This document shows, one piece after another, positions 28,134 to 36,852 of a DNA stretch of 36,852 bases. Under the pieces are notes generated by a model. The model saw only the letters and a program-made list of their open reading frames with translations. It did no database searches and was not told the DNA's origin. The position numbers and the translations under genes are program-made. Position 1 is the stretch's first letter. Every line of letters begins with the position of its first letter. Origin of the DNA: Anaerolineales bacterium (lineage in GTDB: Bacteria; Chloroflexota; Anaerolineae; Anaerolineales; Villigracilaceae). The stretch covers positions 1 through 36,852 of the forward strand of contig JAGVAO010000264.1 in the NCBI GenBank assembly GCA_020060235.1. The letters run 5' to 3'.

Positions 28134-30725
28134 TTACCCCACCAACTGTCGCAACAACGCCAGCGTTTCCGCTTTGCCGCCCAGGCCGTTCTCGCCGCCA
28201 GGCCCAACACAGGACGGACAGCCGTCTTCACACGGACAGGACTGGACATGCTCCAGGCCGCGCGCCAGCAGTTCAGCGTGCAGTTCGAACAGGCGCTCGC
28301 TGAAGCCAATTCCCGCCGGGACCTGGTCGTACAGCACCAGCGAGGGCAGGCCGTTGACCGCAAAAGCCTCCGGTTCGATGTGCAGGCCCAGGTCTTCGGA
28401 GTCGCACATCAGGAAGAGCGGCGCCAGGCTGGCAAGCACGTAGCCCAGCCCGGCCAGTCCGCTGCGCACGCGGACGTTGGCCTCGGCTTTTTTGTGGCAC
28501 TCGGGGCAGAGCGTAATTAAATTGGCGAGGTTGTTGGCAGCCGCGCGGGCCTTGTCCGGGTCATCGGCGCGGCGCATGAAAAAGCGGAAAGGAGTCTTGT
28601 GATGGACATCGTGCTGGCGGCCTGTCCTGGGCGCAGTCGAAGGGCCGCTTTCGGGACGTCCACAGACCTGGCAGCGGAATCCGTCGCGGGCGCGCACGCG
28701 TTCGCGGATTTTGGGCCAATCGGGGCCGTAATCGTTGGGGGCGTTCGTCCATAGCCCGGCCTGGCTGAGGGCTTGCACGGTTTCTTCGGGGATGGACAGC
28801 CAGTAGCCGGTGGTTTGCAAATCGCTGGGCGGCAAGTCGAGCGGTTCCTGGTCGAGGATATGACCGGAGGCCCATTCCTTGCGCCGGAAACCGGTCACCC
28901 GCGTTGTAACCTGGATTTCGCCCCAGGCTTTCTGCGGGGCTTCCGCCATAACCGACAAGACCTCGACCGAGGTCTCGCGCAGCGGCTCGGTGAAATAATC
29001 GAGCGCAACCGGCACCAGGGTGGCCACATTGCGCTGTAAATCGAGTTCTTGGACGTAATACTGCTGGGCTTCGTGCAGGTAAACAGCCTTGGGATGCACC
29101 ATCCAGGGCGCGGATTCGCGGTCAACTTCGCCGAGCAGGCGCGCCCTGAGCTGTGTCGAAGGGCCGTCTTCCACTTGCAAAACCACATTTTCCGGCGAGG
29201 CCGAACGCAGCGAAACGCCTGCTGCCGGGTAGGCTTCCGCCATCCAAAAAACCTTTTCGGGCGCAAGATGGGCCTCGCCGCCCGCAGCCAGCACTTGCAG
29301 GTATTCCTGCACCGTCTCGGCGGACAGGCCGCCGAAACCCTCGTCCGCGCCGAAGGGCAATTCGAACAAGGCGCAGCGGATATGGTTGAGCAGGATGAGC
29401 AGATGGTCGGGATTAATCAGTCCGCGCTCGGGGGAACGCCCAAACAGGGTTTCAGGATGATGGGCCAGGAACTGGTCGATGGGCGCGGGCGAGGCCAGCA
29501 GGATGGAAACAGCCGGGGCATCGCCGCGACCGGCCCGGCCAGCCTGCTGGTAGGTGGAGGCCAGCGAACCGGGATAGCCAACCAGCAGGGCCGCGCCCAG
29601 CCCGCCGATGTCGATTCCCAGCTCGAGGGCGTTGGTTGCCACCACCAGGCGCACTTCACCGGCGCGCAAGCCCTGTTCGATTTCACGCCGGTGGGCGGGC
29701 AGGTAGCCGGAGCGGTAGCCGCGTATGGGGCCCCCACCCCGGCCACCCCCTCCCCGGCCCTCCCCCAAATTCGTTGAATTTGGGGGAGGTTGCAGGGTGG
29801 GGGCCGAAGGGGGAAGATAACTGAGCAAAATCTCAACCCCGCGCCGTGAGCGGGCAAAGATGACCGACTGGACATCGGCGGCGAGCAACTCCTTGCCCAG
29901 CCGCACCGCTTCCTGCACCGACGATTTGCGCAAGCCGAGGGCCTCATCGACCACCGGCGGGTTATAGACCAGAAAATGCTTTTCGCCGCGGGCCGAACCG
30001 TCACGGTCGATGAGCGTCACCGGGGCTTCGACCAGCCGCCCGGCCAGTTCCGCCGGGTTGCCGATGGTGGCCGAGGTCAGGATGAACTGCGGCTTCGCGC
30101 CGTAAAAAGCGGCGATGCGCTTCAATCGTCGAATCACATTGGCAACGTGCGAGCCAAACACGCCGCGATAGGTGTGCAACTCGTCGATGACGACAAAGCG
30201 CAGGTTCCTGAAAAACTCAGCCCAAAGGGTGTGGTGCGGCAGGATGCCGGTATGGAGCATATCGGGGTTACTTAAAACAATCTGGGCCTTCTCACGGATG
30301 GCCTTGCGCTTCGCCTGTGGCGTATCCCCGTCGTAAATCGCCGCCGGGACTGTAAACTGCTCACTGATACCCGAAAACTGGTCCTGCGCCAGGGCTTTGG
30401 TCGGGTAAAGGTACAGGGCGCGCGCCAGCGGATTCTCCGTCAGCGCAGAGAGAACCGGCAGGTTGTAGGCCAGGGTCTTGCCAGAGGCCGTGCCCGTCGC
30501 CAGGACAATGTTTTCGCCACGTTGAACCGCCTCCCAAGCCTCGGACTGGTGACTGTAGAGGGATTGGATTCCGCTTTTCTTAAGCGCGGCAAGCAAGGGT
30601 GGGGAAAGTTCCGGCGGCAGGGGGCGCAAATCGGCTGCCTGCGCGGGGAAAACCTGCCAGTGCGAGACATTCGGCGCGGTCAGGCCATCCTGCCGCAGGT
30701 GATAGAGGAAATCGTCAAAAGCCAT
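28134..30725 (-). CDS. mrfA: MrfA/YprA-type DEAD/DEAH helicase with internal HNH
   Basis: An 863-residue SF2 helicase of the MrfA/YprA (Hrq1-related) family. Walker A GTASGKT is at residues 78-84, DELH at 181-184, SAT at 218-220 and QQAGRAGR at 393-400. The DUF1998 end carries the four-cysteine motif CPCEDGCPSCVG. Between core and end (about 673-745) lies an extra HNH-like zinc domain: RARDGFRCQVCG, then DVHHKTPF and LITLCPECHKK. Three stretches read as intergenic repeats: residues 305-333, about 521-527 and about 694-701. Bacillus MrfA is shorter, about 750 residues. A TACAAT ends 6 bases before the ATG and no binding site is seen, so a leaderless mRNA is likely. It works with MrfB on DNA adducts. 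Confidence 0.93.
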   Translation of the reverse strand: MAFDDFLYHLRQDGLTAPNVSHWQVFPAQAADLRPLPPELSPPLLAALKKSGIQSLYSHQSEAWEAVQRGENIVLATGTASGKTLAYNLPVLSALTENPLARALYLYPTKALAQDQFSGISEQFTVPAAIYDGDTPQAKRKAIREKAQIVLSNPDMLHTGILPHHTLWAEFFRNLRFVVIDELHTYRGVFGSHVANVIRRLKRIAAFYGAKPQFILTSATIGNPAELAGRLVEAPVTLIDRDGSARGEKHFLVYNPPVVDEALGLRKSSVQEAVRLGKELLAADVQSVIFARSRRGVEILLSYLPPSAPTLQPPPNSTNLGEGRGGGGRGGGPIRGYRSGYLPAHRREIEQGLRAGEVRLVVATNALELGIDIGGLGAALLVGYPGSLASTYQQAGRAGRGDAPAVSILLASPAPIDQFLAHHPETLFGRSPERGLINPDHLLILLNHIRCALFELPFGADEGFGGLSAETVQEYLQVLAAGGEAHLAPEKVFWMAEAYPAAGVSLRSASPENVVLQVEDGPSTQLRARLLGEVDRESAPWMVHPKAVYLHEAQQYYVQELDLQRNVATLVPVALDYFTEPLRETSVEVLSVMAEAPQKAWGEIQVTTRVTGFRRKEWASGHILDQEPLDLPPSDLQTTGYWLSIPEETVQALSQAGLWTNAPNDYGPDWPKIRERVRARDGFRCQVCGRPESGPSTAPRTGRQHDVHHKTPFRFFMRRADDPDKARAAANNLANLITLCPECHKKAEANVRVRSGLAGLGYVLASLAPLFLMCDSEDLGLHIEPEAFAVNGLPSLVLYDQVPAGIGFSERLFELHAELLARGLEHVQSCPCEDGCPSCVGPGGENGLGGKAETLALLRQLVG
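28621..28644. repeat. GTCGAAGGG-type repeat in mrfA, HNH loop
   Basis: CCTGTCCTGGGCGCAGTCGA and on to AGGG is read on the minus strand as GPSTAPRTG, between the CxxC and the HH of the HNH-like domain. It belongs to the same family of short imperfect palindromes as 29144-29163. Confidence 0.65.
29144..29163. repeat. GTCGAAGGG-type palindromic repeat in mrfA
   Basis: CCCTGAGCTGTGTCGAAGGG, an imperfect palindrome widespread as an intergenic repeat in several bacterial groups (recalled). Here it is in frame as GPSTQLRA. Confidence 0.65.
29727..29813. repeat. CCCTCCCCCAAATT palindromic repeat in mrfA
   Basis: The core inverted repeat CCTCCCCCAAATTC...GAATTTGGGGGAGG (29759-29789) with C-rich and G-rich flanks matches the copy between gap and pgk. 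It encodes a low-complexity stretch (PPPNSTNLGEGRGGGGRGGG) in the linker just before IRGYRSGYLP. Confidence 0.85.
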
Positions 30726-33223: not shown

Positions 33224-33561
33224 ATGAAGTTGCGGTATGAACCCGAAAACGGTCTCTTCTTTGTTGGCAATTACCTGGATAACATGAGCAGATTTTTTAC
33301 ACCCCACAAAAATGCTTCGCAATTTGTTCCGGAAAGCCTTGCCCCGTTTTTCCAGGAGTATGAGATTGCAAGTTTCAGCCCCGGAAAAGACGCGCACACC
33401 ATTATCGAGCGGACGTTGCAGTTTGGCAACCGTGCCGAATTGCGCTGGCTGTTTGAGGCTTATGGCGAAACAAAAATCCGCGAGTGGGTGCGGCAGTTCG
33501 GGCGCGAAAACCTGCCCCAGCCGCATCTCAATTTCTGGCAAATCGTTCTGGAAATCAAACC

Positions 33562-33565
<4 letters not shown>
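33224..33565 (+). CDS. DUF6922-like antitoxin partner of AbiEii toxin
   Basis: A 113-residue protein whose core (FTPHKNASQFVPESLAPFFQ, then IIERTLQFGNRAELRWLFEA, YGETKIREWV, LNFWQIVL) fits DUF6922, a small helical family found directly before AbiEii-type toxins. It probably neutralises or regulates the toxin. The start at 33224 has no good binding site; the ATG at 33284 (MSRFFTPHKN) has GGAT upstream and starts where the family starts. Its stop overlaps the toxin start as ATGA, so the two are translated together. Confidence 0.75.
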
Positions 33566-35276
<1,711 letters not shown>

Positions 35277-35326: not shown

Positions 35327-36852
35327 ATGAACCTTACCCTCACCATAAACGGAACCCAACACGCCCTTGAATGCCCGCCGCACACCACCCTGCTCGCCGC
35401 CCTGCGCGGGCTGGGCTTTCACTCGGTCAAATTTGGGGATGAACACGGCCTGAGCGGCGCGGACACGGTTTTGCTGGATGGGAAACCGGTCAATGCCGCG
35501 CTGATGCTGGCCGCGCAGGCCGAGGGGCATAAAATCGCCACCTTGGAGGCGCTCGGCGAGCACCCGCAGCAGGGCTGGCGCAAAACCGACGGATTGCACC
35601 CGCTGCAACAGGCTTTCATCGAGAGCGGCGCCATCCAGTGCGGTTACTGCACCCCGGCGCAAATTTTGGCGGCCAAAGCCTTGCTCGACGCAAACCCCAA
35701 CCCCACCGAAGCCGAAGTGCGCGAGGCCCTGGCGGGCGTTCTGTGCCGCTGTACGGGCTATCTCAAGCCGGTGCAGGCGGTGATGAACGTAGTCAATGGT
35801 AATTGGGGAATGGCAAATAATAATTTCACGCTGGCAAATGAACAGGCTCAACCGGAGAACTGGCAAACCAGCCAACCGGATGAACCAATCACCAATCCCC
35901 AATTACAAATTACCACGCTCCCCAAAATGGTCGTCGCGCCCGAAACCGACAAATGGCAGGTGGTCGGCAAGCCCGAAAAAAAAGTGGACGCCGTCAAACT
36001 GGCACAGGGCAAACCGGCCTTTGCGGCGGATATCGAACCGAGGGCCTTGTTGCACGCCAAAGTTTTGCGCTCGCCCCACGCCCATGCGCGGATTAAGCGC
36101 ATCGACGCATCGAAAGCCCGCGCCTTGCCGGGCGTCGCCGCCGTGCTGACCTGGCAGGACATTCCGCGCGTGGTCTATTCGACCGCCGGGCAGTCCGACC
36201 CGATTCCGGGGCCGCTGGATTGCTTCTCGCTGGATAACAAAGTCCGTTTTGTGGGCGATAGGGTGGCATTTGTGGCCGCTGAGACGCCCGAAATCGCCGA
36301 AAAAGCCCTCGGGCTTATCGAGGTCGAATACGAAATCCTGCCCGCGATTTTGGATATGGGCGAGGCGCTCGACAACCCGACGGTCATCCACGACCAGCCG
36401 GAATATGTCAACTTTGCCGACTCCAATCCGGCCCGCAACCTGGCGGCGCATATCCGCATCGACATCGGGGACGTGGAAAAAGGCTTCGCCGAAGCCGACG
36501 AGATATTCGATGCCGAGTACGAGGTGCCGAAAGTCCAGCAGGCGCACATCGAGCCGCATGTCTGCGTCACCTACTGGGACGAGGACGACCGGCTGGTGAT
36601 TCGCACCAGCACGCAAGTCCCCTTCCACGTGCGGCGGATGCTGGCCCCGGTGCTGGGCGTGCCTATCAAGCGCATCCGCGTCATCAAGCCGCGCATCGGC
36701 GGCGGCTTCGGCGGCAAACAGGAAGTGCTGATGGAAGACGTGGCCGCCCACCTGACGATTGCCACCCGCCGCCCGGTTCTCTACGAATACAGCCGCGAGG
36801 AAGAATTCATCGCCGCGCGCTCCCGCCACCCGATGCGAATCCGCATGAAGAC
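35327..36852 (+). CDS. XdhD-like molybdenum hydroxylase, cut by window end
   Basis: 508 codons are open to the window edge with no stop. An N-terminal ferredoxin-type part (1-155) is fused to the molybdenum-binding aldehyde oxidase/xanthine dehydrogenase domain (from about 205; LRSPHAHARI, HIEPHVCVTY, RIGGGFGGKQE). The wording (HSVKFGDEHGLSGAD and on to TVLLDG; TAGQSDPIPGPLD) is close to E. coli XdhD. The four cysteines of the first 2Fe-2S cluster are lost (D38, S43, D46, A58 at the expected places). The second cluster is intact (C105, C108, C140, C142); in E. coli XdhD both appear lost (recalled). AGGAG precedes the ATG by 6 bases. Likely role: oxidation of purines or related heterocycles in the purine pathway. 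Confidence 0.88.
   Translation, partial: MNLTLTINGTQHALECPPHTTLLAALRGLGFHSVKFGDEHGLSGADTVLLDGKPVNAALMLAAQAEGHKIATLEALGEHPQQGWRKTDGLHPLQQAFIESGAIQCGYCTPAQILAAKALLDANPNPTEAEVREALAGVLCRCTGYLKPVQAVMNVVNGNWGMANNNFTLANEQAQPENWQTSQPDEPITNPQLQITTLPKMVVAPETDKWQVVGKPEKKVDAVKLAQGKPAFAADIEPRALLHAKVLRSPHAHARIKRIDASKARALPGVAAVLTWQDIPRVVYSTAGQSDPIPGPLDCFSLDNKVRFVGDRVAFVAAETPEIAEKALGLIEVEYEILPAILDMGEALDNPTVIHDQPEYVNFADSNPARNLAAHIRIDIGDVEKGFAEADEIFDAEYEVPKVQQAHIEPHVCVTYWDEDDRLVIRTSTQVPFHVRRMLAPVLGVPIKRIRVIKPRIGGGFGGKQEVLMEDVAAHLTIATRRPVLYEYSREEEFIAARSRHPMRIRMK
35799..35906. repeat. GGTAATTGG-type inverted repeat in the xdhD-like linker
   Basis: GTAATTGGGGAATGG (35799-35813) and CCAATCCCCAATTAC (35892-35906) are inverted copies matching at 14 of 15 bases. 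They bracket a Gln/Asn-rich linker (about residues 156-197) between the iron-sulfur and molybdenum domains. The same words occur in the intergenic spacer at 18096-18108. Confidence 0.7.

Follow-up and report, generated by a model that had tools for sequence, protein, structure and literature searches.

The gene at the contig end and its domains

The window, that is, the whole stretch of 36,852 nt that was analysed, ends within an XdhD-like gene, and window protein, window genome and window family refer in the following to this gene starting at 35327. The codes for families and genera (f1 for the window family, f2, f11, g23 etc.), for loci (L numbers) and for genomes (G numbers) are internal to the analysis. 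The open reading frame begins with an ATG and runs off the contig at 36852, which is the end of contig C172 in the window's assembly. The remainder of the gene was not found elsewhere in the assembly, where a C-terminal Mo domain occurs only on contigs C107 and C128. These carry two more xanthine dehydrogenase-family enzymes (G000:C107, L007:6959-9814; G000:C128, L008:5464-9530), with complete Fe-S ligands and canonical FAD-subunit motifs.

Table 1. Features of the XdhD-like gene and of its upstream neighbour, in window coordinates.
Feature	Positions	Strand	Remarks
Adenine DNA methylase gene with RAMA domain	34197..35276	+	directly upstream; CcrM is the best NCBIfam model of a family homologue; enzyme membership not claimed
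XdhD-like molybdenum hydroxylase-family gene	35327..36852	+	first 508 residues; 3' end cut by contig end
N-terminal ferredoxin-like domain without [2Fe-2S] ligands	35327..35566	+	residues 1-80; homologue comparison and model
D38 codon, replaces ligand Cys 1 (bovine Cys43)	35438..35440	+	alignment
S43 codon, replaces ligand Cys 2 (bovine Cys48)	35453..35455	+	alignment
D46 codon, replaces ligand Cys 3 (bovine Cys51)	35462..35464	+	alignment
A58 codon, replaces ligand Cys 4	35498..35500	+	homologue alignment; mostly G in the window family
Fer2_2 helical domain, Mo-side [2Fe-2S] site complete	35576..35782	+	residues 84-152; Pfam, 97 bits
Mo-side ligand codons	C105 35639-35641; C108 35648-35650; C140 35744-35746; C142 35750-35752	+	
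a/b hammerhead domain PF01315	36005..36340	+	Pfam, over cut-off
Mo-cofactor-binding domain PF02738 (MoCoBD_1), first part	36431..36850	+	Pfam, over cut-off

By its Mo domain the window protein belongs to the xanthine oxidase family, with PF01315 and PF02738 both over their cut-offs. The best NCBIfam match is TIGR03313, the model of E. coli XdhD, with 383.4 bits for a protein that is cut short against a cut-off of 1101.9, and this cut-off is passed by none of 400 genomes of the phylum. Since the best model is one whose cut-off is not reached, the name must be limited: judged by sequence and as far as naming goes, the protein is XdhD-like and not XdhD. Pfam found no match to Fer2 (PF00111) in the window protein, and a genome-wide search with PF00111 misses the gene while finding six other places. 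As we read the model, the predicted order of strands and helices in residues 1-80 fits a beta-grasp ferredoxin. In the predicted model of the 508-residue protein (mean pLDDT 67.7), the pLDDT is 89-95 at residues 1-30 and 51-70, 73-77 in the old cluster loop (31-50) and 72 at residues 71-80.

Just upstream of the gene (33484-35276) an AbiEii-type nucleotidyltransferase gene is followed directly by the RAMA-domain methylase gene, and a homologous methylase occurs near the XdhD-like gene in L040, L042, L043, L048, L053, L316 and L320. At 28134-30725 the minus strand encodes a DEAD helicase whose winged helix is of the HRQ1 type and which has an HNH motif ahead of its MZB zinc domain.

In place of the canonical wire of two sites with four Cys each, the window protein has none of the four FAD-side ligands and all four Mo-side ligands. 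When it is aligned with bovine xanthine dehydrogenase (XDH), Cys43, Cys48 and Cys51 fall on D38, S43 and D46, and the retained Cys lie in QCGYC and CRC; the fourth position (A58) was assigned from the alignment of homologues and not from bovine XDH. Cys43/48/51/73 are described as the ligands of Fe/S II in the ferredoxin-like domain, the CxxC/CxC motif as belonging to Fe/S I, and the order of electron transfer in the enzyme as Mo, Fe/S I, Fe/S II, FAD (PMC3509653). From this order follows that the relay nearest the flavin is gone, while the relay nearest the molybdenum is kept. An earlier note on this DNA had called the first [2Fe-2S] site gone at D38, S43, D46 and A58, the second (CGYC and CRC) complete, and E. 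coli XdhD apparently devoid of both clusters. What the note calls the first site corresponds to the FAD-side cluster, named Fe/S II in work on these enzymes, and the retained site is the Mo-side Fe/S I. All three statements are borne out, the first by the alignment and the missing Fer2 match, the second by the four intact Mo-side Cys, and the third by the MG1655 sequence, in which the ligands of both sites are absent.

Other accounts of the missing site did not survive. Ligand Cys at shifted positions, an alternative named in the earlier note, are rejected by the 69 other family genomes, taken without selection for state, in which positions 30-66 are free of Cys throughout; within residues 1-90 of 57 further N-termini, a set chosen for lacking the site, Cys occurs only at position 12 (one row) and position 16 (14 rows). 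An artefact of a single assembly is likewise rejected, the same loop being found in 29/29 best-matching relatives and 40/40 further family genomes. Of 80 named loci, 77 could be typed (L264, L271 and L287 were excluded), and among these 36 have the replaced loop and 41 keep the FAD-side site. A separate ferredoxin subunit, the second alternative named in the note, was not seen beside the Mo gene within the 279-contig assembly, and the six Fer2 places of the genome lie in frames of 263, 280, 483, 674, 830 and 1058 aa. A replacement cluster in the FAD subunit is rejected by the number of its Cys, which varies from 2 to 7 within the family.

Fixation in the window family and recurrent changes of cluster state

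A match to the window protein occurs in 149 of 150 family genomes, for 130 of them at E < 1e-100 by a count of the listed matches. The FAD-side ligands are absent in all 71 family genomes that were examined without regard to state, namely the 29 best matches, the 40 further genomes and two more of genus g23. The FAD-side loss is thus fixed in this family of uncultured Anaerolineales. What has replaced the ligands is also conserved: D at position 38, S or T at 43 and D at 46 are found in 69/69 family genomes (29 + 40). In the set of 57 N-termini, which by its choice measures conservation of the replacement and not fixation, 54 of the 56 readable rows have D at position 38, and E39, G44, D46 and N56 are invariant. 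The mean dN within the cluster-free set is 0.143 for the old ligand loop vs 0.757 for the linker. For the ferredoxin domain vs the Mo domain the mean dN is 0.197 vs 0.064 in the cluster-free set (the first 400 qualifying pairs) and 0.335 vs 0.074 in homologues with the cluster (113 pairs), the sets being defined by state. As the replaced loop is conserved, and does not evolve faster than in cluster-bearing homologues, the ferredoxin domain is being kept and is not decaying. In the nearest relative, family f2, both sites are kept in 7/7 typed proteins, and they are kept also in Longilinea arvoryzae.

Two records stand apart. L268 holds a family-type gene (79% identity) under the title Blastopirellula marina, a planctomycete name, and is probably misnamed or a mixed bin. 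L040:10543-10687 (-), in one genome of the window's genus (that of L011), lies about 1 kb upstream of the intact XdhD-like gene and encodes a broken N-terminus of XdhD, spread over two frames; it is the relic of a second XdhD copy.

For a wider comparison 122 of 137 aligned rows were typed, the others being without the N-terminal region or having it on another chain. The typed set consists of E. coli XdhD, the paralogue G000_C107 from the window genome, and XdhD-like proteins of the phylum including the window protein; its rows are among the best-scoring matches and are not a census. Both sites are kept in 59 of these proteins, only the FAD-side site is lost in 31, only the Mo-side site in 5, and both or nearly both in 27, six of which keep one Mo-side Cys. 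None of the 122 rows keeps one to three FAD-side ligands, and the stray Cys seen in two rows lie outside the motif. The five Mo-side-only losses all belong to family f11 (L137, L180, L181, L182 and L219), where the FAD-side site is complete and all four Mo-side ligands are lost, a state opposite to that of the window protein. The replacement loop varies as well: the D, S/T, D loop, conserved in f1, is found again in most of f117, in f134, f125 and f13, and partly in f127 and E. coli XdhD, while S-T-A-D-like loops are found in f9, f10, f33 and others.

The earlier note had proposed to map the cluster states on a phylogeny, and this mapping yields multiple independent losses of each site. On a Mo-domain tree of 120 rows, from which E. 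coli XdhD and G000_C107 were excluded as long branches, the states call for at least eight FAD-side and five Mo-side changes by parsimony on quick LG trees; the same numbers result from 39 chosen rows, and g23 adds two Mo-side changes. With the 39 rows, a tree constrained to a single clade of all FAD-side losses is worse by 919 log units (p-AU 6e-67), and one constrained to a single clade of all Mo-side losses by 773 (p-AU 3e-36), so that a single origin is rejected by AU tests for either loss. L057 falls outside the window family on Mo-domain trees (support 80-81), while holding the family as one clade costs 2.1 log units and is not rejected (p-AU 0.445), so that the FAD-side losses number seven or eight. 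Family f134, with the FAD-side site lost, has as its sister f125, where a single Mo-side Cys is left, and f11, which lost the Mo-side site, forms a group (support 92) with f129, which lost both; the losses thus run in either order. To judge from these sequences, E. coli XdhD is not the endpoint of the window's line.

A second loss has occurred inside the window family itself. All four Mo-side Cys are present in 66 of the 71 family genomes, and the five exceptions, which lie outside the typed set, all belong to genus g23 (L368-L375). Here five of eight proteins have lost the Mo-side site, with one Cys left in L368-L370 and none in L373 and L374, while three keep all four Cys; in the losers the FAD-side loop is D-S-D as in the rest of the family. 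On the Mo-domain tree the two states interleave, the losers being nested among members that keep the site, and at least two changes are needed. L369 (site lost) and L371 (site kept) are sisters with support 97. The FAD-side-lost state can therefore pass into loss of both sites, and g23, where Mo-side loss is in progress or repeated, is a natural test pair for the role of the cluster. The five proteins without the Mo-side site imply that the reaction may do without the retained cluster, and suggest that even this cluster can be spared. On the window's own branch no Mo-side loss was seen among the family genomes examined.

These results divide the claim of the earlier note that the protein is halfway through the loss of its clusters. 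It stands in so far as one site is lost and g23, through its five losers, exemplifies how this state can lead to none; it falls in so far as the FAD-side loss is fixed in 71/71 genomes with a conserved loop and a Mo-side site mostly kept, other lineages have lost their sites independently and in reverse order, and the protein is neither decaying nor on the way to E. coli XdhD. The full reading of the note, by which the protein is passing from two clusters to none and has an altered partner, is an unlikely one. It draws on the nested g23 losses, on the sister relation of f134 and f125 and on E. coli XdhD without either site. It is opposed by the constrained loop and the Mo-side site of 66/71 genomes, by f11, in which the Mo-side site went first, by the rejection of one origin of the FAD-side loss, and by the FAD-subunit gene, which is retained.

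Partner genes and the Mo pocket

The note had also suggested that the protein may need another partner instead of the FAD subunit. This is not supported, for a YgfM-like FAD-subunit gene lies at G000:C166:3680-4426 in the window genome and has counterparts in 133 of 150 family genomes (E up to 1e-12). The best model of the subunit in the window genome is TIGR03312, with 105.9 bits vs a cut-off of 241.5, and its gene lies on another contig than the Mo gene. Of 20 stretches, each about 18-19 kb long, that surround the Mo gene in the family, 13 contain the FAD-subunit gene and 11 an XdhC-type maturation gene. Sorted by cluster state, a FAD-subunit-like gene lies within the stretch at 35/62 FAD-side-lost, 44/74 both-kept and 15/24 both-lost loci, and at none of the five f11 loci (Mo-side-lost only) within the stretches fetched. 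The flavin motifs are altered in the YgfM-like subunits of L060-L089, L139:3680-4429 and L120-L124, where GGN...PxxD is replaced, while GRS is conserved in the family; the flavin of the subunit is for this reason not assured. That the FAD-side loss results from these altered motifs is unsupported, the same alteration being found in f2 subunits, where both clusters are kept.

A total of 45/61 genomes have SsnA above its cut-off, the window genome among them. There, SsnA, npdG and cofE lie together on contig C28, and the Mo gene, the FAD subunit and SsnA lie on three different contigs. A longer order, with other genes interspersed in places, is SsnA-npdG-cofE-cofD-cofC-LLM-class F420 protein-FAD subunit-XdhD-like-XdhC-type factor, where npdG is the NADPH-F420 reductase and cofC, cofD and cofE are F420 biosynthesis genes. 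It is found in the family member L057/L323 (L323:9461-17742), at the seven f2 loci L120-L126 and in L. arvoryzae (L252); SsnA is linked to the XdhD-like gene in L057/L323, in L315 and at the f2 loci. At L125 the FAD subunit shares only 29% identity with the query. At L128, which keeps both sites, and at L199, where one Mo-side Cys remains, homologues of YgeY, YgeW and SsnA lie beside the gene, and at L128 also one of HyuA. The F420 genes at related loci suggest an F420-linked reductive breakdown of urate or purines in Anaerolineae. A correlation of the cluster state with the F420 locus is not seen, as the locus occurs with both states.

The residues which we take to form the Mo pocket are kept throughout. 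Among typed rows that have the position, the presumably catalytic Glu of GVKAVAE is found in 116/116, and the Arg of GAYRGYG in 118/119, the sole exception being a Gln in E. coli XdhD; the window ends before both. The Gln of GGGFGGKQ is found in 121/122 typed rows. Glu606 of E. coli XdhD has been proposed to orient urate (PMC12507026, Li et al. 2025). The equivalent residue is E wherever a typed row has the position (118/118), including E. coli XdhD and the paralogue G000_C107, and in all 30 FAD-side-lost relatives with the position, the window protein again ending before it. It is E in one of eight XdhA-type rows, and six other untyped rows have four E and two D.

E. coli XdhD, together with a co-purified 30 kDa protein that is putatively YgfM, is reported to convert urate to yanthine with NADH, and a putative F420-dependent reductase was noted in Chloroflexota clusters (PMC12507026). 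Li et al. suggest that an F420-dependent protein is the yanthine reductase of the next step (PMC12507026), and in a commentary the protein that donates electrons to the clostridial urate reductase is called undiscovered (PMC12990295). The E. coli XdhD that was assayed (PMC12507026) has, by the MG1655 sequence, no ligand for either cluster. In the main text of that paper, '2Fe-2S' and 'cysteine' are absent and 'iron-sulfur' occurs once; the available parts of PMC12507026, PMC12990295, PMC2997495 and PMC3958847 do not mention the missing ligands. A search of titles and abstract openings, confined to its best matches and with supplements and most subscription literature outside its scope, found no paper on ligand loss in XdhD.

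Electron route, alternatives and known systems

The best explanation, to which as a whole we give nearly an even chance, joins a cluster-free scaffold, electron flow from a flavoprotein partner over the Mo-side cluster to Mo, and F420-linked purine reduction. What we infer about substrate, direction, donor and route is as follows. The gene product would be the Mo subunit of an XdhD-type enzyme, with the iron-sulfur domains fused to it, and the enzyme would most likely act in a reductive purine pathway linked to F420, dehydroxylating urate as reported for E. coli XdhD. The family ancestor would have lost the FAD-side [2Fe-2S] cluster outright, and the loop would have become a conserved cluster-free scaffold with D-S/T-D-G in place of the four Cys. 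Electrons would most likely pass from a flavoprotein partner to the Mo-side cluster and on to the molybdenum, the YgfM-like FAD subunit being the first candidate donor; the flavin partner would be charged by NAD(P)H or F420H2, and the substrate would be urate or a close purine. Where the Mo-side cluster is also gone, as in g23, other lineages and E. coli, the hand-over would have to be still more direct. The reported activity of the cluster-free E. coli XdhD makes a flavin hand-over without the FAD-side relay credible, and an altered electron route, as proposed in the earlier note, is plausible. Published partner binding rests on E. coli, and the window family is known here from its sequences.

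Several points count against this explanation. When Fe/S II is lost from the order Mo, Fe/S I, Fe/S II, FAD, the gap that is left should be too long for fast transfer. The g23 proteins without a Mo-side site, the altered flavin motifs, the scatter of Mo gene, FAD subunit and SsnA over three contigs, the f11 loci without a FAD-subunit gene in their stretches and the F420 locus that does not separate the cluster states weigh on the same side. The Glu606 equivalent is E also in the paralogue G000_C107. The rat Cys43Ser and Cys51Ala proteins are described as insoluble or monomeric (PMC3509653).

A different donor is conceivable. In this alternative a separate soluble donor docks on the cluster-free domain, be it a ferredoxin or, like the LLM-class protein of the locus, an F420-dependent flavoprotein, and the YgfM-like protein is structural. 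The F420 biosynthesis genes, NADPH-F420 reductase and LLM-class protein at the loci of f2 and L057/L323, the altered flavin motifs of the YgfM-like subunit, and the donor of the clostridial enzyme being called undiscovered (PMC12990295) speak for it. It becomes improbable when considering that the F420 locus occurs also where both clusters are present, that Li et al. suggest yanthine reduction as the task of the F420-dependent protein (PMC12507026), and that no ferredoxin gene was seen next to the Mo gene.

Should the protein neither import nor export electrons, by carrying out a redox-neutral Mo reaction or by being inactive or regulatory, the clusters would be free to go, and their repeated loss, also within the window family, would be accounted for; the g23 losses strengthen this account a little. 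The Mo-pocket residues kept in all cluster states, the FAD-subunit-like gene near many loci in three of four states (0/5 in f11), and the two-electron reduction reported for E. coli XdhD (PMC12507026) make it very unlikely. It is scarcely credible that the relay is replaced and not lost, with another metal or an oxygen-ligated cluster bound at D38, S43 and D46: the D-S/T-D loop is conserved in f1 and recurs in other families, but S-T-A-D-like loops serve in its place elsewhere and two family-type members carry S-T-D and A-T-D.

The explanation by a cluster-free scaffold with a flavoprotein donor can be generalized, in a form that we regard as speculative and rather unlikely as it stands. XdhD-type enzymes would then be independent of the Mo-Fe/S-Fe/S-flavin wire, with a partner that carries reduced flavin, or flavin charged by F420H2, serving the Mo by a shorter route. 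The clusters would be vestigial and would have been discarded repeatedly and independently, in either order and in the window family to this day, without loss of the reaction or of the flavin partner. In textbooks, two [2Fe-2S] clusters form a fixed relay in molybdenum hydroxylases, and the repeated loss of one or both relays in relatives means that this wiring cannot be the whole story. One orthologous group holds every combination of clusters with the Mo-pocket residues kept, and with a flavin-subunit gene often near in three of the four states; within one genus, the sisters L369 and L371 differ in the Mo-side site. This variety makes the need for a relay in the reductive direction directly testable. 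XdhD begins the oxygen-free breakdown of uric acid in the gut, and its route for electrons becomes directly testable as well.

Among known systems, bovine and rat xanthine dehydrogenase align with the window protein in their Fe-S and Mo domains and differ by having both clusters, and FAD in the same chain. The aldehyde oxidoreductase of Desulfovibrio (1dgj, 1sij) gives the first Foldseek matches (E 6e-28 and 2e-27), but with a TM-score of 0.45 and an rmsd >10; like the window protein it has its Fe-S and Mo domains in one chain and no FAD domain, and it differs by its two [2Fe-2S] clusters (PMC10223205). The Anaerolineaceae orthologue from Longilinea arvoryzae KOME-1 (L252) is 68% identical and has the gene order of L057/L323, but both of its [2Fe-2S] sites are complete. 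The g23 proteins of L368-L370, L373 and L374 belong to the window family, share the D-S-D loop and differ by the Mo-side loss. E. coli XdhD (b2881), the reported urate-to-yanthine reductase with YgfM (PMC12507026), has the same fused Fe-S/Mo architecture with the FAD-side ligands lost, 39% identity over the 508 residues of the window protein, and YgfM-like and SsnA genes that are found in the window genome too. It differs in that the Mo-side ligands are lost as well, while the window type stays far below the XdhD equivalog cut-off and has F420 genes at related loci.
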